From SAR116 cluster alpha proteobacterium HIMB100 (GTDB lineage: Bacteria; Pseudomonadota; Alphaproteobacteria; Puniceispirillales; Puniceispirillaceae), in contig AFXB01000007.1 in NCBI GenBank assembly GCA_000238815.2, positions 1 through 64,000 on the forward strand: 64,000 nucleotides of DNA, given 5' to 3'. Numbering within the stretch: position 1 is the first letter of the stretch; each line of letters starts with the position of its first letter. A model generated the notes under the pieces. The model was not told the DNA's origin, did not search any database, and was given only the letters and a program-made list of their open reading frames with translations. Both the position numbers and the translations under genes were made by a program. This document shows, in pieces, positions 4,396 through 52,817 of the stretch.

Positions 4396-4510
4396 GATGT
4401 AACGATCCTATTTTGGCAAATTTCTTTTAAAACAAGGTCTTCTTCGGTTGCAGAGCGACAAAAAAAGACCCTATTTACTTTTTCGTGTGACTATATCGCA
4501 CCTATAACTA

Positions 4511-5581: not shown

Positions 5582-6717
5582 CAGCCAAACCCTTTGAGAG
5601 TGAGTTTAGCATTAAGCCAATTTATAAATTGGGCCATGGTAAAATTCACGGCAAGAAAGCTGCCCATCAGTATTGCAATAAGTTCAAGCGTCTGCCCTGA
5701 CTGATTGATCGATGTGGACACAATATAAAACAAGTCAGAAAAGCCAATTGCCACCCCAACAGTTGTAGCTTTCATGATAAAGATCCATTGGTTGCCCAGA
5801 GGCGGAACAATCGAGCGCAAAGCGATAGGCACTTTTATTGTCCACCAAATTCCAAAACTCTTTAAACCAACACTCCTACCTGCTTCAACCAACCCTTTAG
5901 GGACTTCGTCGAGCCCCCCGCGAACAACCTCTGCTATGTAAGCTGCGCCATAAAATACAATGCCAACAATCATTGCCACCAACTCCACTGAGAGCATGCC
6001 TCCGCCGCGGAATCTGAGCCCTTTTAGTTCTGGCACAGACACAATATCTGACCCGGCAGGAGATAAACCAACTGCAGCCAAGATACAAACAGCCAAAATT
6101 GTAACTAGCCAGACCCCAATTGCCTTCCAAACAGCGCTCATCATTCTAATTAGAATGACTGCAAAAACAATTGATGAAACAACGATAACAAGGAGTGTAG
6201 TTAATGACAGATTAAGGGACGGAACAGCAACACCTCGGTTTGAGAGAAATAGTATATCTGCCACTGAATACGCACTTTTCGGAGAAGGGAAATGAATTAA
6301 TATCGAATATAAAAAAACCACCTGAAGGATCAGAGGTATATTCCTGAATATCTGCACATAAAGACTGGAAAGAACCTTAAGGCCAAGAATGTCGCTATCT
6401 CGCATAGTACCGATAACAAAACCGAAGATGGTTGCAAAGAAAATGGAAATAAATCCTACAAACAAAGTATTGAGAAGCCCTATTGTCAATGTGCGGGCGT
6501 AAGTATCGTCAATGCTTCTTTCGATTAAGGAAAATGAATAGGCCCAGCCAGTGGCTCGCTCAAGAAATGAAAAGCCTGATGTGATACCAAGGGCTGTTAA
6601 ATTTGTTTCCGCACTGCTGATTGCACCATAGATAACAGCTAGCGTTACAGTAACAAGAGCCAATTGGACGCAAATGTCGCGCCCACTCATTCGGTGAAAG
6701 TCTCGCCAATTCAGCAT
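5581..6717 (-). CDS. aapQ: Amino acid ABC transporter permease, AapQ-like
   Basis: Permease partner of the AapM-like protein, 378 residues from ATG 6717 (MLNWRDF). A TTG 15 bases upstream extends the frame but has no ribosome site. It has multiple membrane spans and the conserved core YVQIFRNIPLILQ and EVPKGLVEAGRSVGLKSFG (EAA loop). It lies 69 bases downstream of the binding-protein gene, with a hairpin in between, and overlaps aapM by one base. Function and location follow the AapJQMP family of general L-amino acid importers. Confidence 0.88.
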   Translation of the reverse strand: MLNWRDFHRMSGRDICVQLALVTVTLAVIYGAISSAETNLTALGITSGFSFLERATGWAYSFSLIERSIDDTYARTLTIGLLNTLFVGFISIFFATIFGFVIGTMRDSDILGLKVLSSLYVQIFRNIPLILQVVFLYSILIHFPSPKSAYSVADILFLSNRGVAVPSLNLSLTTLLVIVVSSIVFAVILIRMMSAVWKAIGVWLVTILAVCILAAVGLSPAGSDIVSVPELKGLRFRGGGMLSVELVAMIVGIVFYGAAYIAEVVRGGLDEVPKGLVEAGRSVGLKSFGIWWTIKVPIALRSIVPPLGNQWIFIMKATTVGVAIGFSDLFYIVSTSINQSGQTLELIAILMGSFLAVNFTMAQFINWLNAKLTLKGFG

Positions 6718-6740
6718 AAGAAATCTACACAACAGGAGTA

Positions 6741-6764
6741 CCGCCCTGCATTTACGCAGGACGG
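6741..6764. terminator. Intercistronic hairpin between aapJ and aapQ of the island
   Basis: CCGCCCTGC (6741-6749) pairs with GCAGGACGG (6756-6764) with one mismatch and a six-base loop. The T-run lies on the plus-strand side (6768-6773), so on the operon strand this is more likely an mRNA-stabilising hairpin than a true terminator. It would let the binding protein be made in excess over the permeases. The core aap operon has a true terminator in the same place. Confidence 0.5.
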
Positions 6765-6786
6765 CACTTTTTTAATCGCACGTTCT

Positions 6787-7827
6787 TTAGTCAAGGATAG
6801 GAGAATAGAGAACTCCGCCATTACTCCATAGATTGTTCAGACCGCGCTCAAGCTTGTATGGAGATTCCGAACCGAGATTGCGTTCGTAAATTTCACCAAA
6901 ATTACCCATCGCGGCAATCATTTCACGAGCCCAAGTATCACGCATGCCTAGACGTTCACCCATACCTTTGTCTACACCAAGCAGACGGGCAACTGTCGGG
7001 TTAGGCGGACTTGCAACCATTTGGTCTACATTGCCTGAGTTGACCCCAAGCTCCTCGGCTTTGATGAGAGCAGCAAGCATCCAATTCACGATATCAACCC
7101 ATTTCTCGTCACCCTGCCGCATGGCGGCGGCGATAGGCTCTGCAGACAATTTGTCGCCAAGAATGACATGCTGATCAGCATCATCAAATTGGTTGGCCAG
7201 CAGCACAGCGATCGCAGGTCCCCAGGCGGCATAGGCATCACAGCGTCCTGATTTGTAGGCACCGATGACTTCTGCTGTCTTTTCGAAGCTCACCATTTCG
7301 TGTTGGATGTTTTCACTCTTCAGGTGGTCAGCGACGATACGCTCGATCGTGGTCCCAGCAGCAACACATACTGTGCCGCCATCAAGACCCTTTACAGTAT
7401 CAATGCCCAGTTCTTTACGTACCATAATCTGTGCGCCACCAAAGAAGTATGGAATTGAAAACTGCAAACCTAGCTCGGTATCGCGCCCCATGGTCCATCC
7501 GGTTGCCTTGATCACAACGTCCACATCCCCAGACTGAAGCGCGGGAAAACGTTGCGCCCAACTCAACGGGACGATTTGGTTCTTATCTGGAGACCCAAGA
7601 ATGGCAACAGTCAAGGCACGACAAAGATCGATATCAAGACCCTTCCATTCATTTTTATCGTTCACTTCAACAAAGCCAAAATAGCTCCCATTATGGCCGG
7701 AACACAAAAGTGTCCCACGTTCCTGAACTTTTTGTAATGTTGGACTGTCAGCTAGAGCCGCAGAGCCCACTCCAACAACCCCGATAGTCGCTATCGTTGC
7801 TGCAGCTAATTTTCGTAATATCTTCAT
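6787..7827 (-). CDS. aapJ: Amino acid ABC transporter periplasmic binding protein, AapJ-like
   Basis: Extracytoplasmic solute-binding protein family 3, 346 residues. A signal peptide ends near ALA-DSP (residues 1-26). The mature protein has the family pattern GTLLCSGHNGSYFGF, WKGLDIDLCRA and the C-terminal YERNLGSESPYKLERGLNNLW seen in AapJ proteins. The start at ATG 7827 is preceded by a strong AGGGAGG. It is first in the aapJ-aapQ-aapM order and encodes the ligand-selective component. The ligand is unknown; context suggests an amino acid with a sulfur or nitrogen modification. Confidence 0.88.
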   Translation of the reverse strand: MKILRKLAAATIATIGVVGVGSAALADSPTLQKVQERGTLLCSGHNGSYFGFVEVNDKNEWKGLDIDLCRALTVAILGSPDKNQIVPLSWAQRFPALQSGDVDVVIKATGWTMGRDTELGLQFSIPYFFGGAQIMVRKELGIDTVKGLDGGTVCVAAGTTIERIVADHLKSENIQHEMVSFEKTAEVIGAYKSGRCDAYAAWGPAIAVLLANQFDDADQHVILGDKLSAEPIAAAMRQGDEKWVDIVNWMLAALIKAEELGVNSGNVDQMVASPPNPTVARLLGVDKGMGERLGMRDTWAREMIAAMGNFGEIYERNLGSESPYKLERGLNNLWSNGGVLYSPILD

Positions 7828-7977
7828 ACTAACCCTCCCTGTTTGTTCTATATATCAGCACGATCATTTCATATATCGATAGTGACAGGCAGAAAAATAG
7901 GTGTCAAGTTGGCAGAATGTTAAGGTGTCGAGGTTGGAAAAAGAGCTGAACAGTTACTGTGCTCTGAAAAAATACAT

Positions 7978-9156
7978 TTACTGCCCAAGAAGCGGAAGAG
8001 CGTCTTTAAGGTCTGACTTTAAGCTGTCTATATTTTCAAATCCTATATTGAACCGGACAAGTTGGCCGTCTTCTCGCCACGTGCTTGCTGTTCGGACTGG
8101 CTTAACTGGCAGAACTAGACTTTCATACCCTCCCCAACTAACGCCGATACCAAAATAATGTAGTTTGTCAACAAATGCTCGAATCTGCTGGTCTGAGCAG
8201 GGATGAAAAATCACACCAAATAAACCGGCAGCCCCGGTACAATCTCTCTTCCAGTATTCATGTCCAGGACAGTCTGCAAAGGCGGGATGGAGGATACGCT
8301 TTACTTGTGGCTGTTCTTTTAACCATCGGGCAATCTCCCGGCCAGCTTTATCTGCCTGTTCCATCCGCATGGCCAATGTCCGAATCCCACGTAAAGCAAG
8401 AAATACCTCCTGACTTCCCGTTTTATCGCCATAAGCCATAGTGAATTTGCGGATTTGTTCATCCAATGATTGGTCTGCACACGCAACAGCACCCATCATC
8501 GCATCTGAATGGCCACAAATATATTTTGAAATTGAGTACAAAACCACATCAACACCCAATTCAAGTGGTCTACAAAAGCAGGCCGCGAACCAGGTCCCGT
8601 CAATAATGGTTTTCACATTATTTGGTTTTGCAGCCGAGACTATAGCCCGAATATCGGGAAACTCAAATGTACCGGACCCGGGCGCTTCAAACATTATTGC
8701 AACGGTGTTTTTTCTAAACAAGCCGCCTATCTTAGCGCCAATCATGGGGTCAAAATATTCAATCTCAACACCACGCGATGCCAAAACAACATCACAAAAA
8801 TTTCGCGTATTTCCATAAACATGATCAGCGACCAGCAAGTGATCACCCGGCTTTGTGACAGTTGACAATGTCATTGATATTGCAGCAACGCCAGATGAAG
8901 TGAGGGTCACGCCGGCAGCGCCCTCCAGTTCAGCAAGGACAGATTCAAATTGAAAACTCGCTTCATTTCCGTATCGGCCATAATACATAGTGCCTGACTG
9001 ATAGCGTTTATCACGGGCCTCCTCAAACGCACTCAAACTATCGAAAACCATCGTTGAGCCAAGCTCAATAGGCAGGTTAACATGTCTGCCTTCAATCCGA
9101 CGGGGGCGACCCATTTCAACGAGGACATCTTGAATATTTGATAAATTCTTAGCCAT
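7978..9156 (-). CDS. metC: Cystathionine beta-lyase-like PLP enzyme
   Basis: Cys/Met-metabolism PLP enzyme (fold type I), 392 residues from ATG 9156, which has an AGGAAG site; a TTG six codons upstream is less likely. The PLP-lysine is Lys211 in SISKYICGHSD, and the aspartate contacting the ring lies in IIDGTW. The family cleaves C-S bonds by beta- or gamma-elimination, giving thiol, oxo acid and ammonia. A paralogue at 50,246-51,415 is likewise next to an aap transporter. Here the usual DNTW is DGTW. It is transcribed towards aapJ, 150 bases apart. Role inferred: release of a thiol from the imported compound. Confidence 0.83.
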   Translation of the reverse strand: MAKNLSNIQDVLVEMGRPRRIEGRHVNLPIELGSTMVFDSLSAFEEARDKRYQSGTMYYGRYGNEASFQFESVLAELEGAAGVTLTSSGVAAISMTLSTVTKPGDHLLVADHVYGNTRNFCDVVLASRGVEIEYFDPMIGAKIGGLFRKNTVAIMFEAPGSGTFEFPDIRAIVSAAKPNNVKTIIDGTWFAACFCRPLELGVDVVLYSISKYICGHSDAMMGAVACADQSLDEQIRKFTMAYGDKTGSQEVFLALRGIRTLAMRMEQADKAGREIARWLKEQPQVKRILHPAFADCPGHEYWKRDCTGAAGLFGVIFHPCSDQQIRAFVDKLHYFGIGVSWGGYESLVLPVKPVRTASTWREDGQLVRFNIGFENIDSLKSDLKDALPLLGQ

Positions 9157-9274
9157 GCTTCCTATCCGGAACAATTAAATGAGCCAATTATAATATTCAC
9201 ATATTGTATCACTATGCAGAATAATTGTATCATATAACAACACATAAAACGTAACAAAAGCTTAGAACGGTCTC
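9157..9274. promoter_or_regulatory. Divergent promoter region with 21-base-spaced direct repeats
   Basis: AT-rich space between the divergent cystathionine-lyase-like and molybdoenzyme genes. ATTGTATCA occurs at 9203-9211 and again at 9224-9232, exactly 21 bases (two helical turns) apart. This is typical of a regulator binding one DNA face. The IclR gene 11,599-12,372 is a natural candidate regulator, but no family consensus proves it. Confidence 0.45.
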
Positions 9275-11590
9275 ATGAAAACAACTAGAACATCATTAAC
9301 CTCTAATCATTGGGGTGTTGGGCTGGTAGAGACTATTGATGACGAAATCATTGGTGTGCACCCTTTTGCAGAAGACCCAGAACCATCTGACTTAAACAAA
9401 AATATTGTTGAAAGTATACATGGTGAGGCACGTGTACTTCGGCCTGCGTTCCGCAAAAGCTGGTTAGAAAACGGACCAGGCCGCTCCTCAGTCGAACGCG
9501 GCAAAGATACGTTTGTTGAAGTTGAATGGGATGAGGCGTTAGAGCGAATTGCAAATGAACTTTCACGTGTACGGAATACTTTTGGAAATGAGTCTATTTT
9601 CGCAGGCTCTTACGGGTGGGCAAGTGCAGGCCGGTTTCATCATGCACAAAGCCAGTTAAAGCGCTTTTTAAATACACAAGGCGGGTTTGTGGGCTCAGAA
9701 GGAAACTACAGCTATAATGCTGCCCTTGTTTTTATGCCTCATGTTGTTGGCGATTTTCGCGAAAGCGTCGCCGCCGCAACCAGATGGAATGTAATCAAAA
9801 ACCATACGAAACGTGTTGTTTGTTTTGGTGGGGTTCCCACACGAAACGGGCAAATTTCGGATGGCGGAATCTTTAAACACCGTTTGCCCGGCAATCTCAA
9901 AGACTGTGCAGATTCTGGAGTTAAGTTTATAAATATCAGCCCGCTACAATCTGACCTCTTGCCAGAGCTTGAAGCAGAATGGATGCCAACCTGGCCTGGT
10001 TCAGATACAGCAATAATGATGGGGCTGGCCTATACCCTTCTCTCTGAAAACCTTCACAACCAAGAATTTCTGGACACATATACCGTTGGGTTCCCACAAA
10101 TAGCGGCTTACATAATGGGGAAAACTGACGGTCACCCTAAAACTGCTGAATGGGCGGAAAAACAGTCGGGTGTCAAAGCTGACCGTATTAAATCTTTAGC
10201 CCGCGAAATGGTGCAGAACCGAACTATGATCTCGGTTGCTGCAGGAGTGCAGAGAGGTGATTACGGCGAACAACCTTTGTGGATGGCTGTCACCTTAGCG
10301 GCTATGCTTGGTCAAATTGGCTTGCCCGGTGGCGGATATACAATAGCGTATGCAGTAAACGGAAATGTTGGCAACACTGAACGTTTGTTCCGTGCAGGGG
10401 CGTTGAGTCAGGGTACCAATCCGGTTAAATCATATATTCCTGTTGCAATGATAGCTGATCTGCTGCTCAACCCTGGCGGCCATTATCAATATAATGGCCG
10501 CAATTGCACCTTTAACGACATCAGGTTAGTCTGGTGGGCGGGCGGAAACCCATTTCATCACCACCAAGACTTAAACCGTTTGCGCAAGGCATTCCAACGG
10601 CCAGAGACAATTATCGTTAACGAAATCAATTGGACAAGCACAGCGCGGCACGCAGACATTATTCTGCCTGTTGCGAGCCCTCAAGAAAGAACAGATTTTG
10701 GCGCAGGCAAATCGGACAACGCACTTATTCCCATGCCGGCGGCTATAAGCCCTGTTGGTTCCAGCAGAACAGAATACGAAATTTATGCAGAACTAGCCGA
10801 ACGGCTGGGCAACCGCGAGCTTTTCACGGAGAACAAAACCAGCAACGATTGGCTCAATGAGTTGTGGGAGGTCACACGTGAACGTGGACGGCAAGCTGGA
10901 ATGAATTTGCCAAACTGGAAAGACTTTATCTCAGGCGATGCCATTGAGCTGCCTGACCCCTCTCCAAATCAGGTCTTTCTATCTGAATTTCGGACGGACC
11001 CACATGCACATCCTTTAAAAACACCAAGCGGTAAAATTGAACTTTATTCTGAGGTGATTGCGTCTTTCGCGCTTGAAGATTGCCCTGGTCATGCCACGTG
11101 GTTCCCACCAAGAGACGTGAAGGTAGGTTTGAAGAAAGAATATCCACTCTATCTTTTGTCTGGCCAGCCAGCGACGCGTCTGCACAGCCAGTTTGATAAC
11201 GGCACTTATTCAAGATCCCAAAAAATTGACGGACGCGAGCCCGTATTTATACATCCTGATGATGCCGCTTTACGGGGCATACAGACCGGTGATATTGTTG
11301 AATTATTCAACAAGCGCGGCGCATGTCTTGCTGGTGCCCGAGTAACAAATGAAATCGCAAGAGGAAATGTGTTTTTGTGGACTGGTGCATGGTATGATCC
11401 CGATTTTAACGTTAATCAGGACCGTGACCGGCACGGTAACCCAAACACACTCACCCATGATGAAAAAACATCATCTCTTTCCCAAAGCCCCGCTGCCCAC
11501 TCTGCCCTTGTTGACATTCAGAAATTTGCTGGGCCGGTTCCGGATATCACAGTTCATCATCAGCCAGAATTTACCATTCTTGCAGAGTAA
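9275..11590 (+). CDS. Molybdopterin S- or N-oxide reductase, BisC/TorA family
   Basis: DMSO-reductase-family molybdoenzyme, 771 residues. It is closest in layout to biotin sulfoxide reductase/TMAO reductase: no N-terminal iron-sulfur cysteine motif, and a serine Mo ligand, Ser146 in EGNYSYNAA. The N-terminal HWGVG and GSYGWASAGR segments fit. No Tat signal is seen, so it is probably cytoplasmic like BisC, using a small thiol or flavoprotein donor. The C-terminal dinucleotide-binding domain (SGQPATRLHSQFDNG) is present, so the protein is complete. It is divergent from the C-S lyase and forms an operon with iclR eight bases downstream. Likely role: reduction of an S-oxide or N-oxide group, for example a sulfoxide amino acid, before lyase cleavage. 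Reverse (oxidising) use is possible. Confidence 0.85.
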   Translation: MKTTRTSLTSNHWGVGLVETIDDEIIGVHPFAEDPEPSDLNKNIVESIHGEARVLRPAFRKSWLENGPGRSSVERGKDTFVEVEWDEALERIANELSRVRNTFGNESIFAGSYGWASAGRFHHAQSQLKRFLNTQGGFVGSEGNYSYNAALVFMPHVVGDFRESVAAATRWNVIKNHTKRVVCFGGVPTRNGQISDGGIFKHRLPGNLKDCADSGVKFINISPLQSDLLPELEAEWMPTWPGSDTAIMMGLAYTLLSENLHNQEFLDTYTVGFPQIAAYIMGKTDGHPKTAEWAEKQSGVKADRIKSLAREMVQNRTMISVAAGVQRGDYGEQPLWMAVTLAAMLGQIGLPGGGYTIAYAVNGNVGNTERLFRAGALSQGTNPVKSYIPVAMIADLLLNPGGHYQYNGRNCTFNDIRLVWWAGGNPFHHHQDLNRLRKAFQRPETIIVNEINWTSTARHADIILPVASPQERTDFGAGKSDNALIPMPAAISPVGSSRTEYEIYAELAERLGNRELFTENKTSNDWLNELWEVTRERGRQAGMNLPNWKDFISGDAIELPDPSPNQVFLSEFRTDPHAHPLKTPSGKIELYSEVIASFALEDCPGHATWFPPRDVKVGLKKEYPLYLLSGQPATRLHSQFDNGTYSRSQKIDGREPVFIHPDDAALRGIQTGDIVELFNKRGACLAGARVTNEIARGNVFLWTGAWYDPDFNVNQDRDRHGNPNTLTHDEKTSSLSQSPAAHSALVDIQKFAGPVPDITVHHQPEFTILAE

Positions 11591-28839: not shown

Positions 28840-29688
28840 TCATAGCTCTATGACCTGCAAATCCTCAGCGATGGCGCATGAACCTGTGAATTGTGCTCTG
28901 GCAGCAGCCAACATATCTGCGTGATGGCGAGCTTCATCCATATGTTTACGGATATGGGTAAGCAGCAACTGCTTAACCCCTGCCCGCTCTGCCATTTCCG
29001 CAATTTGCCCTGCATCAGGCGAATATTTCATCACCGTTGGATACTGGGTTTCATGAGCAAGCCGATAACACCAATGCAACAGCAAATCAGCATCTGTGCA
29101 TAAGGCTTCAATTTCAGGTGACAGGCCGGCATCACCTGAATAGACAAATGCCTTCGTTTTGGTGTGCAGGCGAAAAGCCATACAATCCAGATATGGCTGT
29201 GCATGCGGGGCAGCACAAGATGTCAACGCCCAGCCTTCAGCTTCATAGCTGAACCCGGCTGTTATTTCTGTTAACGCTGGTGCGGGCCAGGGACGGGGCA
29301 ATGTGCCGCCTCTTGCTGTCCACACCTCTTGAGAGCCGGGAAATTCAGTTCTGGCTGTAAGGTCTGAGGAAAACACACCGTTACGGCCAAACAGCTTTTC
29401 GGTGATTTCCTTCAGTGGTGATGGTCCAAAAACCTGTATTGGCGGGCTTTTTTCATCCCAGGCGGCATGGATTAACCGGGCGTAATCCATCATATGATCA
29501 GAATGCAGATGTGTGAAAAACAAATGCGTAATGTCTCCGGGGGTAAAGCCAGCCTCAATCAATCGTGAAACCACACCGCCGCCACAATCCAGCAAGATAC
29601 GATCATTCCCGACTTCCACCAGATATCCTGATGACGCCCGCCGTTTATGGGATTCCGGCGTGCCCGTTCCCAAACAGGTAATCTTCAT
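28840..29688 (-). CDS. Metallo-beta-lactamase-fold hydrolase (RNase Z/AtsA-like)
   Basis: 282 residues. The dinuclear metal motif is HLHSDH (His60, His62, Asp64, His65), preceded by LLDCGGG. Overall it resembles RNase Z-like and AtsA-type arylsulfatase proteins. No signal peptide. It overlaps the upstream sulfatase by four bases, so both are made together. A second sulfuric-ester hydrolase or a lactonase acting on the product are both possible. Confidence 0.8.
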   Translation of the reverse strand: MKITCLGTGTPESHKRRASSGYLVEVGNDRILLDCGGGVVSRLIEAGFTPGDITHLFFTHLHSDHMMDYARLIHAAWDEKSPPIQVFGPSPLKEITEKLFGRNGVFSSDLTARTEFPGSQEVWTARGGTLPRPWPAPALTEITAGFSYEAEGWALTSCAAPHAQPYLDCMAFRLHTKTKAFVYSGDAGLSPEIEALCTDADLLLHWCYRLAHETQYPTVMKYSPDAGQIAEMAERAGVKQLLLTHIRKHMDEARHHADMLAAARAQFTGSCAIAEDLQVIEL

Positions 29689-31115
29689 GATGTCAGCTCC
29701 GGTGGCGGGGTCGCTGCTCTTGCGCCAAGCGTTTTAGCAATCTCAAATCCACCATATCCGTCAACCAGCGCCTGCTGGTCCTGATGCGCTTTCGTGTCAA
29801 CAGCCTCAGGGTGACAGATGGCTGTCAATTCGGCATATAAATCCGCTTTCACATTGCTAAAGGCCTCTTGTTCAGCCAGATTGGTTAGCTCCTCAGGATC
29901 TGCCTTCAAATCGAAAAGCTCTGGGGCAAAGCCAACATAATGGATCAGTTTAAACTGGCCTTTTCTCAGCATAAACCCACCGGAAACCGCTCCGACAGCG
30001 TGATACTCGCTAAACACAGCCCTGTCCTCATCTTCTGGCTGCTGACAGATGTCACGAAGAGACTGGCCAACTGTTGCACTCAGCGCTGGCAGCTCAAATG
30101 TATCAGGAATCGTTGCTGAAATATCCAGCAAACTAACCGGTGTGTTACAAACACCAGCCGGAATGCCGGGGCCTGACAGGATCAGTGGTATAGATACAGA
30201 TTCCTGATATAAATTTGATTTTCCCCACAGGCCACGTGCACCAATATTATCGCCATGGTCACTGGAATAGATAATATCTGTGGTTTCACGAAGCCCCGTC
30301 GCCTCCAGCTTTGTGAGTATCTCTCCAATATTATGATCCAGCCAACTCACCAGCCCATAGTAAGCAATAAAGGCACGACGGCGTTCATTTTCATCTGTGA
30401 AGGTTGCTTCTGTATCCATCAATGCATTTTGCTTTTCAATCCAGGGATGGCGTTTATATCCAGATGCAGGATGCAGTTTTGGCTCGGGAAATTCAATATC
30501 CTCATAAAGGCTGTAAAACGGGTCTGGACAAACCAGCGGGAAATGTGGGGCAACCAATCCCACATATAAACACCACCCCTGATCTTTATCCTTGGCCGAA
30601 TCCAACCAGTCCAGTGTGCGTTTCACAACCGCGCTATCATAATCTGTATAGCTGGAATTACCCTTGCCGATGAAATCCCCGAGCATACGGCTGGTGCTGA
30701 TTAAGCGTCTGTCTTCTTGCCGGATAGAGGCCCAGACCATACCCACCCCGTCTTTGACCATCATCGGGATATGCTCAACATCAAATCCAGCATCATCCGC
30801 CTCATCGCGATAGTGCAGTTTGCCGATTGATTCAACCGAAATGCCTGCATCTTGCAACTGATGCCCCCACCCTTTTGGTGTTCCGGTATAAGGCATTGCA
30901 TTATCCCAATGACCTGTTTTGTGGACATATTGTCCACTTGCGAAAGCAGCTCTTGCTGGCACACATATCGGCGACGGGGTATAAGCGTTTGTGAAGCGCA
31001 TACCTGATGCTGCCAGCCTGTCCAGATGAGGAGTCTGGACAAATGGATGTCCGGCACATCCCAATGCACGGGCCTGATGTTCATCAGAAAGAATAACAAT
31101 TAGATTTTTGCTCAT
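29685..31115 (-). CDS. Cytoplasmic type I sulfatase
   Basis: 476 residues from ATG 31115 (MSKNLIVILSDEH). A TTG at 31136 overlapping the MarR stop is an alternative. Formylglycine cysteine Cys51 in CVPARA; metal ligands in SDEH and in SSDHGDNIGARGLWGKSNLYQE. No signal peptide, so the sulfate ester must be imported. Second gene of the leftward marR-sulfatase-MBL operon, and divergent from a TctCBA importer that may supply the substrate. Confidence 0.88.
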   Translation of the reverse strand: MSKNLIVILSDEHQARALGCAGHPFVQTPHLDRLAASGMRFTNAYTPSPICVPARAAFASGQYVHKTGHWDNAMPYTGTPKGWGHQLQDAGISVESIGKLHYRDEADDAGFDVEHIPMMVKDGVGMVWASIRQEDRRLISTSRMLGDFIGKGNSSYTDYDSAVVKRTLDWLDSAKDKDQGWCLYVGLVAPHFPLVCPDPFYSLYEDIEFPEPKLHPASGYKRHPWIEKQNALMDTEATFTDENERRRAFIAYYGLVSWLDHNIGEILTKLEATGLRETTDIIYSSDHGDNIGARGLWGKSNLYQESVSIPLILSGPGIPAGVCNTPVSLLDISATIPDTFELPALSATVGQSLRDICQQPEDEDRAVFSEYHAVGAVSGGFMLRKGQFKLIHYVGFAPELFDLKADPEELTNLAEQEAFSNVKADLYAELTAICHPEAVDTKAHQDQQALVDGYGGFEIAKTLGARAATPPPELTS

Positions 31116-31132
31116 GGATACACTGCTCAATT

Positions 31133-31585
31133 TCAAAAATTCAAATGACCGGACTTCTCTTCCAAACGGTTCAGAAAATTGAATAGCTGTTTCAGCTCTT
31201 CGGATGTAAATCCGTTTTGAAGATGTGCCTGACGCTGCATCATAATCGGAAACATTTTATCAACTGTGTCAACGCCGGATGGTGTCAGACTGATTTTGCG
31301 CAACCGATTATCAGCTGTTGATTTGTCTGTCTGGATAAGGCCCTTTTCCTCAAGACGTTTAATTGTGCGACTGATTTGACCTTTATCTAGTCCCATTGCC
31401 AGAAGAACATCTTTTTGCGTTTCAACCTCAGGATTATACAGAACAGCCAAAGCACGCCACTCGCTCAGGGACAAGCTCAAATGGTCTTTAAGAAGCTCAC
31501 TTGCTTGTGCGCTCAGTTTCGCCTGAAGCCGCGCAATACGATAGGTGAGATGTTGGTTCAGATCATATATCTGGCTGTTGGTCAT
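31133..31585 (-). CDS. MarR-family transcriptional regulator
   Basis: 150 residues from ATG 31585 (MTNSQIYDLNQHL). The winged helix is visible as LSEWRALAVLYNPEVETQKDVLLAMGLDKGQISRTIKRLEEKGLI with the wing STADNRLRKISLT. MarR proteins are ligand-released repressors. It sits at the head of the sulfatase-MBL operon, next to a fitting operator in the divergent region. Confidence 0.9.
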   Translation of the reverse strand: MTNSQIYDLNQHLTYRIARLQAKLSAQASELLKDHLSLSLSEWRALAVLYNPEVETQKDVLLAMGLDKGQISRTIKRLEEKGLIQTDKSTADNRLRKISLTPSGVDTVDKMFPIMMQRQAHLQNGFTSEELKQLFNFLNRLEEKSGHLNF

Positions 31586-31634
31586 AAATGTACCGCGATC
31601 TTCGTTTAGGGTATCGAGATGGTACGAATGAAAA

Positions 31635-31661
31635 AGTTGATTGGTCAACTGTTTTAGTTGA
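31635..31661. promoter_or_regulatory. Three-half-site MarR-type operator
   Basis: AGTTGA (31,635-31,640), TCAACT (31,645-31,650) and AGTTGA (31,656-31,661) form two overlapping perfect inverted repeats with 4- and 5-base spacers. They lie between marR and tctC. The last half site overlaps the proposed -35 of tctC, as expected for repression. Confidence 0.65.
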
Positions 31662-31686
31662 CTTATCCGCAGACCGGCGGTTGAAT
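31658..31686 (+). promoter_or_regulatory. Sigma-70-like promoter of tctCBA
   Basis: TTGACT (31,658-31,663), 17-base spacer, TTGAAT (31,681-31,686), ending 28 bases before the tctC ATG. The -35 matches well, the -10 moderately. Confidence 0.45.
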
Positions 31687-31714
31687 TTGGAAGGTTCTTA
31701 TCTGGGAGGATATT

Positions 31715-32662
31715 ATGAGACGATTAGTAATTGCACTGGCTGCGCTGATTGGCGTTATGGGCGGCGCTGCTTCTGCGGTGGCTGAATGGCAGCCATCTGG
31801 CCCTATCAAGCTGGCCATTGCCTTTGCTGCAGGCGGCGGGGCTGACACCATTTCTCGCCAAATTGCAGATGAGCTGCAAAAACGCAAAGGCTGGGAAATC
31901 ATTCCACAACAAATCACTGGCGGTGGTGGTGCCAAATTGGCAGCAGCGCTGAAAGATGAGCCAAATGATGGCACAACAATCGGCATGGTGGTCACCGAAA
32001 CATACGGCTATAACATGGTCGCAAACCCAAAGGCTGGCTTCAGCCAGGCAGATATGACACCGATCACCACAGTCGCAGCGTTTCAGATGGGTGTGGTCGC
32101 GAAATCTGACAAAGGCTGGAAGACCTTTGCTGATGTTGTCGCTGCCGGCAAATCTGGTGAAAAATTACGGTTCGGAACAATGTCTCCGAAACTTGCTGAC
32201 CTGGCGTTTTTGATCGGTGAAGCAAATGGTATTGACTTTAACATCATCGAAGTTAAAGGCGGCAAAGCTGTCATGAATGGCGTGAATGCAGGTGATATGG
32301 ATTTAGGCTTCATGGCAGGCATTCAAAGAAAGGGCGTAGCGTCTGGCGATCTTGTAAATTTGGCCTCTGCTATGTCTATGCCTCTGAAACAAACGCCTGA
32401 TGCACCGCTCATGGCTGACATTGGTGTGAAGTTTAATGCTGACGGGTATTTCCTGTTCGTCGGCCCAGCTGGCATGGATAGTGAAGCGCGCAAGGCGATC
32501 TCAGAGGCTATTGCAGAGATTGTTAAAGATGAAAGCACAAAGGCTGGTGGGATCATCAAAAAGGCGTTTGGCGGCCATGCGGTCATCAGCGGTCCTGAAC
32601 TTGATCAGCTGTTGGTAATTGAAGCAGCCTCAGCTGAATCGCTGATGATGGCTGTTCAGTAA
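31715..32662 (+). CDS. tctC: TctC/Bug-type periplasmic binding protein
   Basis: 315 residues. Signal peptide residues 1-24 (ending SAVA-EWQP). The Bug fold is shown by IKLAIAFAAGGGADTISRQIA and the long ligand-binding loop. GGGAGGA precedes ATG 31715. It captures the substrate of the tripartite tricarboxylate-family transporter formed with tctB and tctA. These transporters take carboxylates, but context here suggests a sulfated carboxylate or aromatic sulfate. Confidence 0.9.
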   Translation: MRRLVIALAALIGVMGGAASAVAEWQPSGPIKLAIAFAAGGGADTISRQIADELQKRKGWEIIPQQITGGGGAKLAAALKDEPNDGTTIGMVVTETYGYNMVANPKAGFSQADMTPITTVAAFQMGVVAKSDKGWKTFADVVAAGKSGEKLRFGTMSPKLADLAFLIGEANGIDFNIIEVKGGKAVMNGVNAGDMDLGFMAGIQRKGVASGDLVNLASAMSMPLKQTPDAPLMADIGVKFNADGYFLFVGPAGMDSEARKAISEAIAEIVKDESTKAGGIIKKAFGGHAVISGPELDQLLVIEAASAESLMMAVQ

Positions 32663-32732
32663 GCTGAAGAAATCAATTTGATTAGCAAAGCCCGGTTGAG
32701 GAGAATCACTCAATCGGGCTTAATGTCCTGTA

Positions 32733-33287
32733 ATGAACACACCTTACTATGACAGATTCATCGGTATTTTTCTCTGTGTGATATGTCTGCTGTGTCTTTT
32801 TGTGTGGATACCAGCTGACAGCGAAACCGGCTTGGTTGAAACCGTGCGCAGACGATTGATTATCGGTGATGCCCTTGCCCCTTCTGTAGCCAGCCTGTTG
32901 GGGTTGATTTGTGCTGGCCTGTTGATTTTTAAACCAAAAGCACTGCCAGACCTGAACCGCAGGGCGGTCGGCTCTGTCCTTATCTATATAGCCTGTTTCA
33001 CAATTGTTCTGTATGTGATGCGCCATCTCGGCCCGACCCTGATAGACAGCTTGCATTCACTGAATCTCATCACCTCTTCCTACCGGCCATTAAGAGCGAC
33101 ATTTCCTGTCAGCCAAATCAGTTTTGTTACCGCCGGCGGGATCATGATTTTCAGCCTGTCTGTCTATATTGACAAGCAGTATTCCTGGCACAGATTAGGG
33201 ATCTGTTTTGCCCTGGCATTTTTGATTGCGCTTCTGTTTGACGCTCCTTTTGAAGATATATTACTGCCACCTAATGGTGATGTGTGA
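32733..33287 (+). CDS. tctB: TctB-type small membrane subunit
   Basis: 184 residues with four likely membrane spans (starting around residues 9-27, 46-65, 77-95 and 120-165). It is the small integral subunit of the transporter. Its stop overlaps the tctA start region. Confidence 0.82.
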   Translation: MNTPYYDRFIGIFLCVICLLCLFVWIPADSETGLVETVRRRLIIGDALAPSVASLLGLICAGLLIFKPKALPDLNRRAVGSVLIYIACFTIVLYVMRHLGPTLIDSLHSLNLITSSYRPLRATFPVSQISFVTAGGIMIFSLSVYIDKQYSWHRLGICFALAFLIALLFDAPFEDILLPPNGDV

Positions 33288-34867
33288 TGGGCTTGTTTGA
33301 TCATATTCTTCTGGGTATCCAATTTGCCTTTTCAGGAACGGCCTTTTTTGGTGTTCCTGTGACCATATTAATGGTCGGCTCCGGGTTTGTATTTGGTGTT
33401 TTGGTCGGGGCGACCCCTGGCCTTGCTGGTCCGATGGCCATGGCCATAGCCCTGCCGATCCTGATTTCCTTATTTGGCTATGAAGCTGCAGCTTTATTGC
33501 CTGTCATGGGGTTCTTATTAGGGGTTATGAAAGGTGCCACCTTAGGCGGAGCTGTTCCGGCGATCTTATTTAACACGCCGGGAACACCTGATGCGTTAAT
33601 GACAACATTTGATGGCTATCCGATGACCATTAACGGAAAAGGCAGAGAAGCGCTGAAAACGGCTCATTTCGCCTCTGTTTCCGGCGATAGTTTTTCAGAT
33701 ATTGTTTTGTTCATCTGTGCCCCTTTCCTCGCCATCTATGTCGAAGCTTATCTTGATTTACCCGAAAAGACCGCCTTGATTTTGCTGTCTTTGACCTTTA
33801 TCGCGGCGATCATGGGACAGTCTGTCATCAAAAGTCTGATCGCCGTTGCCATGGGATTATTTGTGGCGTTTATTGGCACAGGTGAAGGGTTTTACCCGCG
33901 TCTGTCTCTTGGCATTAACGACTTAAATGGGGGCTTCCCGATTGCCATTGTCGTGCTAGGCGTCCTGGTCATTGGAGAGGTCCTGATGACCATTCACAAA
34001 GCCAGAGAAGAACAGACCAAAACCGGCCAAATAGAACAGGTAAATTTATCAAAATCTGGCTGGTTGTCCTGGGCCAAACGAAAAGCAATGATGCCTCATA
34101 TCGCGACCTCAGCTGTGATTGGGACAGGAATTGGCGCGCTTCCCGGGATTGGTTCAACAATGGCAGCTACCCTTGGCTACACCATTGGCAAACGGCGGCA
34201 TCAGGCGCGAAAAACACCAGATGAAGCTGCCTTTGGACAAGGCGCCCCACAAGGAATTGCTGCTACAGAGGCTGCAAATTCAGCCGTATCCGGTGCAAAT
34301 CTGATCCCGGTTCTGTCTCTTGGCATTCCAGGCAATGCCGCCGCTGTATTCCTGATTTTGGCAATGGAATCTATTGACGGGATTAACCCCGGCCCAGGTG
34401 TATTTAAATTGCCGTCAGAAGGCACAAACCCTGAAATGATTATGGTATTTGGCTTATTTACGCTCATGGCCCTTGCGAACCTGCTGAACTGGGTTGTGGG
34501 CATCCATATCATGCAGGCGATGTCAAATATGGCAAAGATTCCGAAACAACTTCTGATGCCAACTGTATTGCTGGTCACACTGACCGCAATATATGCAGAA
34601 CATGCCTCTATGTTGGCGCTGGTCTGGCTTGTCGGTTTTGGCCTGTATGGATTTATCGTGCGGCTTTTAGGGTTTCCGATTTTGCCGTTTGTGATTGCCT
34701 TTATCCTGGCACGGCCACTTGAAAACACGGCCCGTCAGGCCTTTGCCTCAACAGGAGCAGATCCATGGTTTTTATTTTCCAGCCCGGTCGCGATTGCTTT
34801 GATGGCAGGGTGTTTTTTTGTCATATCTTTCAGTGCGTTGAGGAGATTGAAACATGACGCGTCCTAA
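33287..34867 (+). CDS. tctA: TctA-type large membrane subunit
   Basis: 526 residues from ATG 33287 (GTG 33284 is also possible). Family signatures are GATPGLAGPMAMAIALP, GAVPAILFNTPGTP and ALPGIGSTMAATLGYTIGK, with ten or more membrane spans. It overlaps the downstream sulfatase by 14 bases, tying transport and sulfate-ester hydrolysis in one operon. Confidence 0.93.
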   Translation: MGLFDHILLGIQFAFSGTAFFGVPVTILMVGSGFVFGVLVGATPGLAGPMAMAIALPILISLFGYEAAALLPVMGFLLGVMKGATLGGAVPAILFNTPGTPDALMTTFDGYPMTINGKGREALKTAHFASVSGDSFSDIVLFICAPFLAIYVEAYLDLPEKTALILLSLTFIAAIMGQSVIKSLIAVAMGLFVAFIGTGEGFYPRLSLGINDLNGGFPIAIVVLGVLVIGEVLMTIHKAREEQTKTGQIEQVNLSKSGWLSWAKRKAMMPHIATSAVIGTGIGALPGIGSTMAATLGYTIGKRRHQARKTPDEAAFGQGAPQGIAATEAANSAVSGANLIPVLSLGIPGNAAAVFLILAMESIDGINPGPGVFKLPSEGTNPEMIMVFGLFTLMALANLLNWVVGIHIMQAMSNMAKIPKQLLMPTVLLVTLTAIYAEHASMLALVWLVGFGLYGFIVRLLGFPILPFVIAFILARPLENTARQAFASTGADPWFLFSSPVAIALMAGCFFVISFSALRRLKHDAS

Positions 34868-36383
34868 CATTCTGTTTATTACAGCCGACCAACAGCGCGC
34901 AGACTGTATCGGCATTGAGGGCAGAAACATCAAAACGCCCCATCTTGATGCATTGTGTCGTGACGGGACCCGGTTCACCTCAGCCATTACCCCGTGTGTT
35001 GTCTGCCAGCCCGCCCGTGCTTCAATTCTGACCGGCCAATTGCCGCGCACGCATGGGGTTCATGATAATGGCATCGATCTCAACCCTGAAATTGGTGAAA
35101 AGGGGTTTGCGGGCACATTAAGCGCTGTTGGCTATAATACCGGGTTTTTTGGAAAGGCTCATTTTTCCACCTATCACACTTTTGCCCCGACCGGTTCACC
35201 TGAATGTCTCCGCTCTTCAGCAGATTATCCAGACAGCTGGTTTGGTCCTTACATGGGATTCCAGCATGTTGAAATGATGCTGGTCGGCCATAACTGGTTT
35301 TTGCCCGAAAAACCACCTGCGGGTCAGCATTATGAACGCTGGTTTTATGCAGATGGCAAAGGGGATGAAAAAAACCGCCTCTACCGGGAAAATGCGGGCG
35401 ACACAAAGAACGCCGCACAAACCTGGCATTCCCGCCTGCCGGTCGCCTGGCATAACTCAACCTGGACAGCAGACAGAACCATCAACTGGTTAAAAGAACA
35501 GGCACAACAGGATAAGCCGTTTTGTGCCTGGGTCAGCTTTCCTGACCCCCATCACCCTTTTGATGCGCCAGAGCCATGGTCTCACCTTCACAAGCCGGAG
35601 AATGTTGATCTCCCTGAACACAGGCAAAGAACATTTGAAGGCCGGCCATGGTGGCATGAACAAGTGCTGACAGCAGAGCCTGCTGGCACAAAGGAAAATG
35701 CCGAAACACGTAAAGCCTATAGCCGGATATCACATCAGTCAGATGAACAGCTGCGCGAAATTATTGCCAATACATATGGCCAGATTGCCCTTGTTGACCA
35801 TCAGCTTGGGCGCATTATGGCCAGCCTGGAAGAACTTGGCTTGGCGGAAAACACGCTTATCGTTTATGCCTCTGATCATGGTGACTGGCTCGGCGATCAT
35901 GGGCTGATCCTGAAAGGACCTATGCATTATGAAGGGCTGCTTCGTGTGCCGCTGATTATGAAAGGCCCTGGCGTTCCCGCCGGACAGGTCAATGATAATC
36001 CTGTTTCTACATTGGATCTCAGTGCGACATTTGCTGATCTTGTCGGCACACAGCCCCTGCTCCGCCAGCATGGACGCAGCCTGCTGCCCTTATTGAAATA
36101 CCCCGATGCGGGCCGTATATTTGCCCTTAATGAATGGGAATTGCTACCGACTCGTGCGGGTGTTGCCCTGTCTTTGCGGACGGTAAGGACAAAGACAGCA
36201 AAAATGACAATTGACCAGATCAGCGGCGCCGGAGAGCTATATGATCTGGCAGCAGACCCCGATGAGCTGGTCAATCAGTTTGACAACCCGCAAATGCGCC
36301 CGTTGCGAGATGAGCTTATGGAAATGCTGGAGACCAGGCCGGATGATTATCTGCCTCATCAAACCCAGGTAGGTATGGCGTAA
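34854..36383 (+). CDS. Cytoplasmic type I sulfatase
   Basis: 509 residues. Formylglycine cysteine Cys51 in CQPARASILTGQLPR, metal site ADQQ and SDHGDWLGDHGLILKGP. No signal peptide. AGGAGA lies upstream and the gene starts inside tctA, so it is translated with the transporter. The pair predicts import of a sulfate ester followed by cleavage in the cytoplasm. Specific substrate unknown. Confidence 0.9.
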   Translation: MTRPNILFITADQQRADCIGIEGRNIKTPHLDALCRDGTRFTSAITPCVVCQPARASILTGQLPRTHGVHDNGIDLNPEIGEKGFAGTLSAVGYNTGFFGKAHFSTYHTFAPTGSPECLRSSADYPDSWFGPYMGFQHVEMMLVGHNWFLPEKPPAGQHYERWFYADGKGDEKNRLYRENAGDTKNAAQTWHSRLPVAWHNSTWTADRTINWLKEQAQQDKPFCAWVSFPDPHHPFDAPEPWSHLHKPENVDLPEHRQRTFEGRPWWHEQVLTAEPAGTKENAETRKAYSRISHQSDEQLREIIANTYGQIALVDHQLGRIMASLEELGLAENTLIVYASDHGDWLGDHGLILKGPMHYEGLLRVPLIMKGPGVPAGQVNDNPVSTLDLSATFADLVGTQPLLRQHGRSLLPLLKYPDAGRIFALNEWELLPTRAGVALSLRTVRTKTAKMTIDQISGAGELYDLAADPDELVNQFDNPQMRPLRDELMEMLETRPDDYLPHQTQVGMA

Positions 36384-36407
36384 ATCAGCAGGCAAACAGA
36401 AGAACTA

Positions 36408-36737
36408 TCAACCAGTGGTCAAATCCGGACAAAAGTTGGTCGGGACCATAAGCTTGTTGTTCTGGCGTTCAAGTGCGCCAAGCTCAGCGCTTTTCTGGAC
36501 ATAAGCAAGCCATTCCGGATCAGACCATAGCACAGCACGTTTTGCTTCACGGTCACCTGCATTTTCATATACCCAGATATGAACATATTCATTTGGGTCA
36601 CCACTTTCTCCGCGCAGAAACGCAAGCGGTGTGCCCAGACAGCGATATTGCGGAGCTTTGCCATATTCATCATAAAGCGCAAGATGGGCATGAATTGTGC
36701 CAGGCTTACAGCGGTAGGTTCTCACATCGACTAACAT
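36408..36737 (-). CDS. NIPSNAP-family protein
   Basis: 109 residues, dimeric alpha-beta barrel type: MLVDVRTYRCKPGTIHAHLALYDEYG, then YVHIWVYENAGDREAKRAVLWSDPEWLAYV. Family function is unclear. Converges on the sulfatase gene with 24 bases between stops. Confidence 0.82.
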   Translation of the reverse strand: MLVDVRTYRCKPGTIHAHLALYDEYGKAPQYRCLGTPLAFLRGESGDPNEYVHIWVYENAGDREAKRAVLWSDPEWLAYVQKSAELGALERQNNKLMVPTNFCPDLTTG

Positions 36738-51434: not shown

Positions 51435-52817
51435 TCAGGCAGAAAAAATCTTGCCAGGGTTCATAATGCCTTTGGGGTCGAGTGTCTGTTTGATGGATTC
51501 CATCACTTCCACGGCCTCGCCCAGCTCTGCACGCAAATAGCTTTGCTTGCCCTGACCTATGCCATGCTCACCGGTACATGTTCCGCCGAAATCAAGTGCG
51601 CGTTGTGATAAGCGCTTTGTGAAAGCGGTAATTTTATCCTGGGTCTCCTGATCATCTGGCATGCACATGGGCAGACAATGAAAATTACCATCTCCCACAT
51701 GTCCAATGATGGTCGAGACAAGTCCGGTTTGTTCGATATCCAGTCGTGTTTCTTCCACACATTCAGCCAGTCTGGATATCGGCACACACACATCTGTTGA
51801 CTGTCCAACCGCCCCTGGCATCATCGCCATGGTCGCGTAATACGCATCATGCCGGGCCTTCCATAATTTCTTACGCTCTTCTGGGTCAGTGGTCCAGATA
51901 AAATCCTGGTCTGTATGGTCAGACGCGATCATCTTGAATAAATCCGCCTGTTCTGCCACTGATTGCTCTGTGCCGTGAAATTCAAGCAATAACAGAGGTG
52001 TTAACGGCAAGGACAAGCCGGAATAGGCGTTACAGGCCTTGATTTGCAGCTCATCCAGCAATTCAATCCGCGCGACCGGAATCCCATATTGAATGGTCTG
52101 GATAACCGCCTGACAGGCTGCTTTAATTGACGGGAACGAACAAATGCCACCAGCGATCATTTCTGGTATGCCCTGCAGCTTCAGGGTCAGTTCTGTAATC
52201 ACCCCCAATGTGCCCTCAGATCCGATCAAAAGACGGGTCAGATCATATCCTGCTGATGATTTACGGGCCCGCCCTCCTGTACGGATAATTCGGCCATCTG
52301 GCAGCACCGCCTCCAGAGCCAGAATATTATCCTTCATGGTCCCATAGCGGACCGCATTGGTTCCTGACGCGCGGGTTGCGGCCATCCCGCCAAGTGATGC
52401 ATTCGCACCAGGGTCTATCGGGAAAAACAGCCCTGTATCGCGAAGATGTTCATTTAAGGCTTCCCGCGTTACTCCGGGCTGAATCACCACGTCCATATCT
52501 TCAGAATTCACCTGAAGAATTTTATCCATCCCATTCATATCAACGCATATACCGCCATAAGGTGCATTGACATGACCTTCCAGAGATGAGCCAACACCAA
52601 AGGCAATCACCGGACATCCTGTGTCATGACAGACAGAAATAACATCAGACACATCTTCTGCTGACTGTGCGAAAATAACTGCATCTGGCAGTTGCTGAGA
52701 AATCCGCGATGTTGTGTGGCTGTGATGACTGCGGACAGATTCACTCTGTGAGAGCCGATCCCCGAATTTCTGCTTCAATATGGCGACGGCCTGATCGATA
52801 GACTGACGTTCAAACAT
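51435..52817 (-). CDS. FAD-linked D-lactate/glycolate-type dehydrogenase
   Basis: 460 residues. FAD_binding_4 segment PVIAFGVGSSLEGHVNAPYGGI and IDPGANASLGGMAATRASGTNAVRYG; C-terminal GTCTGEHGIGQGKQSY and DPKGIMNPGKIF. Membrane-associated GlcD/DLD type oxidising a 2-hydroxy acid and feeding electrons to the respiratory chain. No GlcE or GlcF partner is adjacent, so single-subunit D-lactate dehydrogenase is favoured. Confidence 0.9.
   Translation of the reverse strand: MFERQSIDQAVAILKQKFGDRLSQSESVRSHHSHTTSRISQQLPDAVIFAQSAEDVSDVISVCHDTGCPVIAFGVGSSLEGHVNAPYGGICVDMNGMDKILQVNSEDMDVVIQPGVTREALNEHLRDTGLFFPIDPGANASLGGMAATRASGTNAVRYGTMKDNILALEAVLPDGRIIRTGGRARKSSAGYDLTRLLIGSEGTLGVITELTLKLQGIPEMIAGGICSFPSIKAACQAVIQTIQYGIPVARIELLDELQIKACNAYSGLSLPLTPLLLLEFHGTEQSVAEQADLFKMIASDHTDQDFIWTTDPEERKKLWKARHDAYYATMAMMPGAVGQSTDVCVPISRLAECVEETRLDIEQTGLVSTIIGHVGDGNFHCLPMCMPDDQETQDKITAFTKRLSQRALDFGGTCTGEHGIGQGKQSYLRAELGEAVEVMESIKQTLDPKGIMNPGKIFSA

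Follow-up and report, generated by a model that had tools for sequence, protein, structure and literature searches.

Organization of the locus

The window analyzed here is a stretch of 64,000 nucleotides (positions 1 to 64,000, forward strand) of contig AFXB01000007.1 from SAR116 cluster alpha proteobacterium HIMB100, that is, contig C7 of a 2.46-Mb genome in 10 contigs whose completeness was scored at 100%. It contains a divergent seven-gene locus encoding a tripartite tricarboxylate transporter (TTT), two sulfatases named SulfA and SulfB, a MarR-family regulator, and a metallo-β-lactamase (MBL)-fold hydrolase (Table 1). The minus-strand arm runs MBL–SulfA–MarR and the plus-strand arm TctC–TctB-like–TctA–SulfB. 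This layout, a TctCBA importer overlapping a sulfatase gene with marR, a second sulfatase and an MBL hydrolase divergent from it, had been proposed in an earlier note on this DNA, and each gene was found where the note had placed it. SulfB overlaps tctA by 14 bp, and SulfA overlaps the MBL gene by 4 bp. The SulfA open reading frame begins with TTG, the ATG at 31115 being the likelier start; the marR frame is open to 31648 (TTG), and the ATG at 31585 is likelier because the TTG falls within the operator described below.

Table 1. Features of the locus and a related gene elsewhere in the window
Feature	Position	Strand	Evidence
MBL-fold hydrolase, RNase Z/ElaC-like side of superfamily	28840..29688	-	Pfam PF12706/PF00753
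SulfA, Cys-type S1 sulfatase (CVPAR), choline-sulfatase-like	29685..31136	-	PF00884, 134 bits
MarR-family regulator	31133..31585	-	PF01047, 38 bits
marR promoter-like site, TTGACC-18-TACCAT	31619..31648	-	Consensus scan; not evidence of function
Putative operator, pair of neighboring palindromes of the GTTGAC-NN-GTCAAC type, the second one imperfect	31636..31670		Inverted repeat and footprint
TctC, periplasmic solute-binding protein	31715..32662	+	PF03401, 51 bits
Small hydrophobic protein, TctB position	32733..33287	+	Hydrophobic segments; homologue in 63/80 loci
TctA, large permease subunit	33284..34867	+	PF01970, 326 bits
SulfB, Cys-type S1 sulfatase (CQPAR)	34854..36383	+	PF00884, 155 bits
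D-lactate-dehydrogenase-like flavin adenine dinucleotide (FAD) oxidase, 15 kb off	51435..52817	-	51–52% identity to the oxidases of loci L128 and L179

Conservation and distribution of the unit

Conservation of the locus, which the earlier note had named as a check, was assessed in the best 80 of 137 SulfB relatives from a genome-wide scan. Gene presence was scored by tblastn with the window proteins anywhere in the available stretch; several loci are cut by contig ends, with over 7.5 kb available on one side in 69 of the 80. TctA was present in 67 loci, the TctB-like protein in 63, TctC in 62, SulfA in 60, MarR in 59, and the MBL hydrolase in 42. All seven genes occur together in 41/80 loci, and six genes, with MBL not counted, in 52/80. 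In 58 loci tctA precedes SulfB by no more than 150 bp and shares its strand, and in 13 of the 80 no TctA at 45% identity or more was found. In two loci (L077 and L087), SulfB lies beyond the opposite arm, with linkage kept.

The 80 loci come mainly from Rhodobacteraceae/Roseobacteraceae, Rhizobiaceae, and SAR116 or unplaced Alphaproteobacteria; some bins of gamma- and betaproteobacteria and one of Chloroflexi are also among them. Within the family of Shimia biformata (G073, locus L118), SulfB was detected at E values up to 1e-150 in 25 of 248 sampled genomes, with TctA inside the same 4.5 kb in 23 of them. The family of the window itself had a full-length SulfB at 73% identity or more in 7/61 genomes, the window genome included. 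Among 72,556 plasmid records, eight carried SulfB at E values up to 1e-100, one of them (H1) typed as conjugative, while a single SulfB scan of viral contigs returned no relatives. Altogether, gene content and linkage support the prediction that the importer, the apparently cytosolic sulfatases, and MarR are conserved together as a unit in several alphaproteobacterial families and a few gammaproteobacteria. The earlier note had also called this route undescribed, and we found no published description of the locus, as judged by titles and abstract openings, with most subscription papers lying outside the search.

Neighboring genes were considered as further members and set aside. The NIPSNAP gene at 36408–36737, which closes the interval marked in the earlier note, had a match above 45 bits in only one of the 80 loci, and there not adjacent to SulfB; the beta-lactamase-like gene at 27679 and the BKACE gene at 25847 were not seen within the conserved unit of the 80 loci. 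Other companions were observed in passing. Six of the 80 loci (e.g., L120, 1247-2320) and three of the eight plasmids also encode an AbrB-family (PF05145) protein, and in two plasmid loci (L177, 8155-8985; L178, 8168-8992) a universal stress protein gene separates tctA from SulfB. Sulfitobacter sp. SK012 carries two distinct versions of the locus on two plasmids (L177 and L179), one typed as conjugative.

A conserved putative operator between the two arms

The gap between marR and tctC contains an inverted repeat, GTTGATTGGTCAAC at 31636–31649, and, starting at 31657, a second, half-matching copy. GTCAAC-N7-GTTGAC, the inner pair, spans 31644–31662, and the two palindromes are 21 bp apart, centre to centre. 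Across 58 distinct MarR/tctC gaps, the inner pair with a spacing of 5 to 9 nucleotides was perfect in 31, compared to 4 of 2,248 control stretches elsewhere in the same loci, and it was still perfect in 30/56 after similar gaps were removed. The 14-mer GTTGAC-NN-GTCAAC matched at 11 or more of its 12 positions in 44/58 gaps. Mononucleotide shuffles yielded neither a perfect inner pair nor a 14-mer at this level (0/1,160 for each); in 11 of the 58 gaps the 14-mer reached only 9/12, which is within the shuffle range. The motif was derived from the tested gaps themselves, and the test is thus one of conservation, not of binding. The results show that a palindromic, putative operator in the divergent gap is conserved.

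The repeat overlaps the -35 element of the marR promoter-like site (31648–31619). The earlier note had placed the operator over the tct -35 element; the repeat itself is present and conserved, whereas the tct element, TTGACT at 31658–31663, is plausible only, with no good -10 seen downstream by eye. The sole plus-strand promoter-like site in the scan runs into the tctC start codon. As a separate observation, a LysR-type gene stands divergent upstream, at the place that MarR has in the main family, in four loci (L115, L119, L123, and L124), and upstream of SulfB itself in L131.

Two sulfatases without apparent signal peptides

Both SulfA and SulfB match PF00884 and keep the formylglycine cysteine in a C-x-P-A-R motif, which places them in the S1 sulfatase family. 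The motif is CVPAR in 58/61 SulfA relatives and CQPAR, CQPSR, or CMPAR in 76/80 SulfB sequences, the remainder being cut or broken frames except for L099, with CQPTR. By eye, neither window protein has a signal peptide: both start at or near the first core strand, with no leader ahead of it, in agreement with the earlier description of them as signal-less, and no leader was seen by eye in the relatives' sulfatase N-termini either.

The best solved match of SulfA is the choline sulfatase of S. meliloti (1.4e-58). Compared to the choline-sulfatase model TIGR03417, SulfA and SulfB scored 257.8 and 195.8 bits, respectively, both below the cut-off of 433.45, while three other sulfatases of the genome exceed it (850.7, 562.0, and 561.1 bits). 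Glu386, the choline-recognition residue described as invariant among choline sulfatases (PMC5870055), is Val in the window protein and Val, Ala, Ile, or Leu in all 27 aligned SulfA rows. With this residue replaced and the score below the cut-off, we rejected SulfA as a predicted choline sulfatase. The predicted fold of SulfB (pLDDT, the predicted local distance difference test, of 88.6) was closest by Foldseek to PsS1_NC, a carrageenan exo-sulfatase, followed by SpAS1. Among solved sequence matches of SulfB, 6pt4 and 4upi came ahead of the phosphonate monoester hydrolases 2w8s (1e-37) and 2vqr (9e-36).

Sulfatase maturation in the window genome and its relatives

The window genome has nine PF00884 matches, amounting to about eight sulfatases, all eight with the C-x-P-x-R cysteine and none with a leader by eye. 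The N-terminus of the ninth match (C10:644517) bears what we take to be the signature of phosphoglycerate mutase, and this protein was left out of the count as probably that enzyme. A search of 13 genomes with a short IUPAC version of the sulfatase motif was far too unspecific to be informative. No formylglycine-generating enzyme (FGE) was found in the window genome by PF03781 at E values up to 0.001 or with the PF03781 protein of L115 as the query at E values up to 10, and model TIGR03942 for the anaerobic sulfatase-maturating enzyme (anSME) matched in none of the 61 genomes of the family, the window genome included. PF03781 matches occur in 28 of these 61 genomes, above 200 bits in 11, and a genome of the same genus (G004) has an FGE gene immediately 3' of SulfB, in the opposite orientation.

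We also searched 22 named, mostly cultured genomes chosen from the 80 loci, all with SulfB and not all with the full unit. PF03781 was present in 17; at E values up to 0.001 it was not found in the other five (G061, G063, G070, G071, and G075; no anSME search was made there). Among the 22, G069 has a single PF03781 match of 80.5 bits, above the Pfam cut-off, which the FGE protein query finds at only 22 bits. These six genomes hold 5 to 16 PF00884 matches each, some of them split. The single-contig relative G014 encodes a Cys-type sulfatase (L166) and has no match to PF03781 or to the anSME model. Because this genome and five other strains likewise have no PF03781 match, an artefact of assembly gaps is weakened as the sole cause, while a gap in the window genome itself is possible. 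The MBL hydrolase was considered as a stand-in for FGE and rejected: both enzymes are encoded next to the unit in L100 and L102, so there is no rule of exchange.

The machinery that forms formylglycine in E. coli is described as not yet identified, and unmodified choline sulfatase still turns over, slowly (both PMC6189696). The missing FGE and anSME could reflect a maturase of another kind, catalysis by the unmodified cysteine, a divergent FGE, or gaps in the assembly.

The MBL-fold hydrolase

Residues H60, H62, D64, H65, H162, D186, and H245 of the MBL protein are invariant in 18 sequences. The HxHxDH motif and the binuclear-metal ligands are present; they are also common to RNase Z and so are not specific to SulfAtlas family S4. 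The best PDB profile match is 8gyg, an MBL-fold enzyme named as an arylsulfatase (1.4e-28), followed by BA1088 (5.6e-28) and RNase Z, and the protein matches models for RNase Z, cyclic nucleotide phosphodiesterase, and PhnP, all below their cut-offs. The S4 arylsulfatase has been placed near the RNase Z clade, with HxHxDH, and S4 membership is defined by at least 30% identity to AtsA (PMC5066984). The MBL protein probably adds another hydrolase to the pathway and is possibly a third sulfatase, one that would be zinc dependent and formylglycine independent.

The importer and its candidate ligands

TctC and TctA both score above their family cut-offs (PF03401 and PF01970), identifying these two proteins as TTT subunits, and the N-terminus of TctC is leader-like. 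The protein at the TctB position has several hydrophobic stretches and no Pfam or NCBIfam match; in relatives, the gene at this position is annotated as TctB in one plasmid locus (L177) and as "hypothetical protein" in six others. Sequence-profile and fold searches with TctC (predicted model pLDDT, 91.3) returned 2dvz, which is BugE according to a table in PMC5812351, 4x9t (a ligand-free TctC), Bug27, MatC, BugD, TBP, Rpa4515, and TphC. The nearest solved folds thus include binders of malate (MatC), oxoadipate (Rpa4515), and terephthalate. Apart from Bug27, the binding proteins of TTT systems are described as binding dicarboxylic acids (PMC8556258). Sulfolactate, a 2-hydroxyacid that carries a sulfonate group, is given as the substrate of one such system, SlcHFG (PMC5812351).

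Two other candidate importer–sulfatase pairings were observed. Within the window, positions 1931-3472 encode a third signal-less sulfatase, which passes the choline-sulfatase cut-off (561 bits) and adjoins an aminotransferase-like gene and an amino-acid ABC importer-like operon reaching to 7827, the neighbors being named by guess from their sequence starts; the region 1931–7827 is perhaps another such pairing. A second TTT–sulfatase pair of the same genome lies in L049 (G000:C1:158000-176000) at 6576-11258, where a TctC-like gene is directly 5' of a Cys-type sulfatase gene, with TctA-like and small membrane-protein-like genes divergent from it.

Oxidase genes beside the locus in relatives

In six of the 80 loci (L115, L117, L118, L119, L124, and L126) and on five of the eight plasmids (H2, H3, H5, H6, and H7, of which H5 and H6 have nearly the same arrangement), a flavin mononucleotide (FMN)-dependent 2-hydroxyacid oxidase of the lactate-dehydrogenase family is encoded directly 3' of SulfB. 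The two that were scanned, from L115 and L118, scored 408.5 and 426.3 bits, above the NCBIfam L-lactate dehydrogenase subfamily cut-off of 376 and below the stricter LldD cut-off. L115 has the order TctC-TctB-TctA-SulfB-oxidase-FGE-SulfA on a single strand. A D-lactate dehydrogenase (D-LDH)-like FAD oxidase is encoded directly 3' of SulfA in four further loci (L120, L122, L128, and L129) and beside a sulfatase gene on two of the eight plasmids (L179 and L177). L179, on the conjugative plasmid of Sulfitobacter SK012, has window-type arms (MBL–SulfA–MarR and TctCBA–SulfB); its D-LDH-like gene adjoins SulfB, a different arrangement, and is 82% identical to that of Shimia (L128). Among solved structures the D-LDH-like enzyme matches D-lactate dehydrogenase best (472 bits), though it does not reach the glcD cut-off; the window's own gene of this type, at 320 bits against 567.9, is left unassigned. 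D-LDH, FGE, LldD, AbrB, and LysR are the five recurring neighbor clusters that were annotated, among more.

Gene remnants were seen in both groups. SulfA fragments follow an intact SulfB-oxidase pair in L119 (11685-11792) and L124 (7172-7270), and oxidase fragments follow SulfB in L122 (10516-10803) and L128 (10528-10659), where D-LDH adjoins SulfA. These remnants suggest exchange between the FMN-oxidase and D-LDH branches.

The company of these oxidases is the best clue to the substrate. Given the dicarboxylate binding of TTT proteins, the folds nearest TctC, and the 2-hydroxyacid oxidases in some relatives, the candidate ligand class shifts from aryl or alkyl sulfates, as the earlier note had it, to a carboxylated sulfate ester. 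Together the data favor a predicted 2-hydroxyacid O-sulfate; plain aryl and alkyl sulfates fit less well, and we keep them as a rival only. Glycolic and lactic acid sulfate are reported to rank often in the top five organosulfates by abundance in fine particulate matter, PM2.5 (PMC12224290); that compounds of this kind serve as the marine substrate is a guess.

A proposed pathway and its alternatives

From the gene content and its conservation, the operator footprint, the loss of the choline-recognition glutamate, and the linkage of oxidase and FGE genes in some relatives, we infer, with moderate confidence, a MarR-controlled unit for small carboxylated sulfate esters, most likely 2-hydroxyacid O-sulfates of the lactate or glycolate type. 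TctC would capture the sulfate-ester dianion in the periplasm and TctAB would carry it into the cell, where formylglycine-type SulfA and SulfB would release sulfate in the cytosol. Dehydrogenases of the lactate or glycolate type would then oxidize the freed 2-hydroxyacid; these are encoded beside the locus in some relatives and could lie elsewhere in the genome of the window species, and the window's D-LDH-like enzyme (51435..52817) may use the pathway product. The MBL protein would serve as a further hydrolase, and MarR, bound to the double palindrome between marR and tctC, would repress both arms until an effector appears. The uptake of esters whole, as put forward in the earlier note, is retained here as a prediction from the missing signal peptides and the gene linkage, with the ester class changed to carboxylated. 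We consider import followed by desulfation a well-supported hypothesis. A more elaborate form of the proposal, a dedicated marine pathway for hydroxycarboxylate organosulfates (glycolic and lactic acid sulfate) with TTT import, two sulfatases possibly split by enantiomer (SulfA with D-LDH, SulfB with L-hydroxyacid oxidase), and an unknown aerobic maturase or unmodified cysteine where FGE and anSME are unrecognized, is rather unlikely.

Several observations weigh against the 2-hydroxyacid O-sulfate assignment. The window locus itself has no oxidase gene, its D-LDH-like gene being 15 kb away, 51–52% identical to those of relatives, and below the glcD cut-off. No close oxidase (above 45% identity) was found in the available stretch of 70 of the 80 loci, with weak matches of 26–31% identity in L058, L094, L099, and L114. 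All ten oxidase loci fall in one SulfB clade of 12 (support 100/100) that excludes the window, and they therefore represent few independent events. Some SulfB relatives have other partners (a GMC oxidoreductase gene in L130, ABC genes in L181), so substrates may vary. SulfB is near phosphonate monoester hydrolases, a carrageenan sulfatase, and SpAS1, which makes phosphoester or phosphonate substrates possible, and no FGE or anSME was found to account for the maturation of the sulfatases in the window genome.

Scavenging of sulfur, in which general aryl and alkyl sulfate esters would be imported for their sulfate with the carbon part incidental, as with the ats system of Pseudomonas, is one alternative. 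It would account for two S1 sulfatases next to an MBL protein whose top profile match among solved proteins bears the name arylsulfatase, and the combination of import with a cytosolic sulfatase is a known arrangement in ats. We nevertheless judge it unlikely: TTT binding proteins are described as dicarboxylate binders, 2-hydroxyacid oxidases join the unit in some relatives, and seawater is rich in sulfate, where scavenging is less needed. A sulfated sugar acid or aromatic carboxylate, such as a uronate or hydroxybenzoate, would leave the relatives' oxidases as a side branch and would suit an oxidase clade that excludes the window, a SulfB whose nearest solved fold is a carrageenan exo-sulfatase, and terephthalate binders among the TctC fold matches; yet the window-type locus of the conjugative plasmid also has a D-LDH-like gene next to SulfB, and the five annotated recurring clusters hold no sugar or aromatic catabolic gene, which makes this substrate quite improbable.

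We are similarly doubtful that the substrate is a phosphonate or a phosphate mono- or diester, with the "sulfatases" resembling phosphonate monoester hydrolases and the MBL protein acting as a phosphodiesterase. The SulfB matches to 2w8s and 2vqr and the sub-threshold MBL matches to RNase Z, phosphodiesterase, and PhnP models lean that way, but the better matches are sulfatases (6pt4 and 4upi for SulfB, choline sulfatase for SulfA), and the same five clusters hold no phosphonate genes. Finally, a pathway for choline-O-sulfate or another osmolyte sulfate is very improbable despite the best solved match of SulfA, considering its replaced Glu386, its score below the cut-off, and the three other sulfatases of the genome that pass it.

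If the 2-hydroxyacid O-sulfate proposal holds, the unit would represent a biological sink for carboxylated organosulfates and a new ligand class for TTT systems. Fine aerosol is reported to have carboxylated C2–C3 compounds among its most abundant organosulfates (PMC12224290), and no route for their import and desulfation was found in the literature searched. In addition, genomes that combine several Cys-type sulfatases with no recognizable FGE (or anSME, where searched) make the unexplained formation of formylglycine in E. coli (PMC6189696) testable against relatives in which FGE lies beside this locus.

Comparison with known systems

The proposed route can be set beside five known systems. 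The ats genes of Pseudomonas (AtsR/AtsBC, AtsA, and AtsK) resemble it in importing sulfate esters that are then desulfated in the cytosol; they differ in their ABC-type importer and control by sulfur starvation, as opposed to TTT and MarR here, a comparison made by description and not by sequence. BetC, the choline sulfatase of Sinorhizobium, is a Cys-type S1 enzyme that cleaves the S–O bond of a small alkyl sulfate and is the nearest solved relative of SulfA (PMC5870055), whereas SulfA has no Glu386 and scores below the family cut-off, and the window locus has a TTT importer and MarR.

In the slfRCHSL operon of Psychrobacter plasmid pP62BP1, a sulfatase is likewise grouped with oxidoreductases for the use of organic sulfate (PMC3346939); its sulfatase is an SdsA1-type MBL alkylsulfatase, its regulator belongs to the AraC family, and the word "tripartite" is absent from the text of that report. 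The S4 enzyme AtsA of Pseudoalteromonas carrageenovora likewise has an MBL fold, the HxHxDH motif, and a place close to RNase Z (PMC5066984); the similarity of the window protein is remote and drawn through the profile match to 8gyg, an MBL enzyme named as an arylsulfatase. The last of the five, the TTT system SlcHFG for 3-sulfolactate in Roseovarius and Chromohalobacter, handles a sulfonate in place of a sulfate ester, the word "sulfatase" is absent from the text of the review describing it, and the likeness is one of description, not of sequence. As proposed for the importer of the window, SlcHFG brings in a small, sulfur-bearing 2-hydroxyacid dianion, and it does so together with a catabolic pathway for sulfolactate (PMC5812351).

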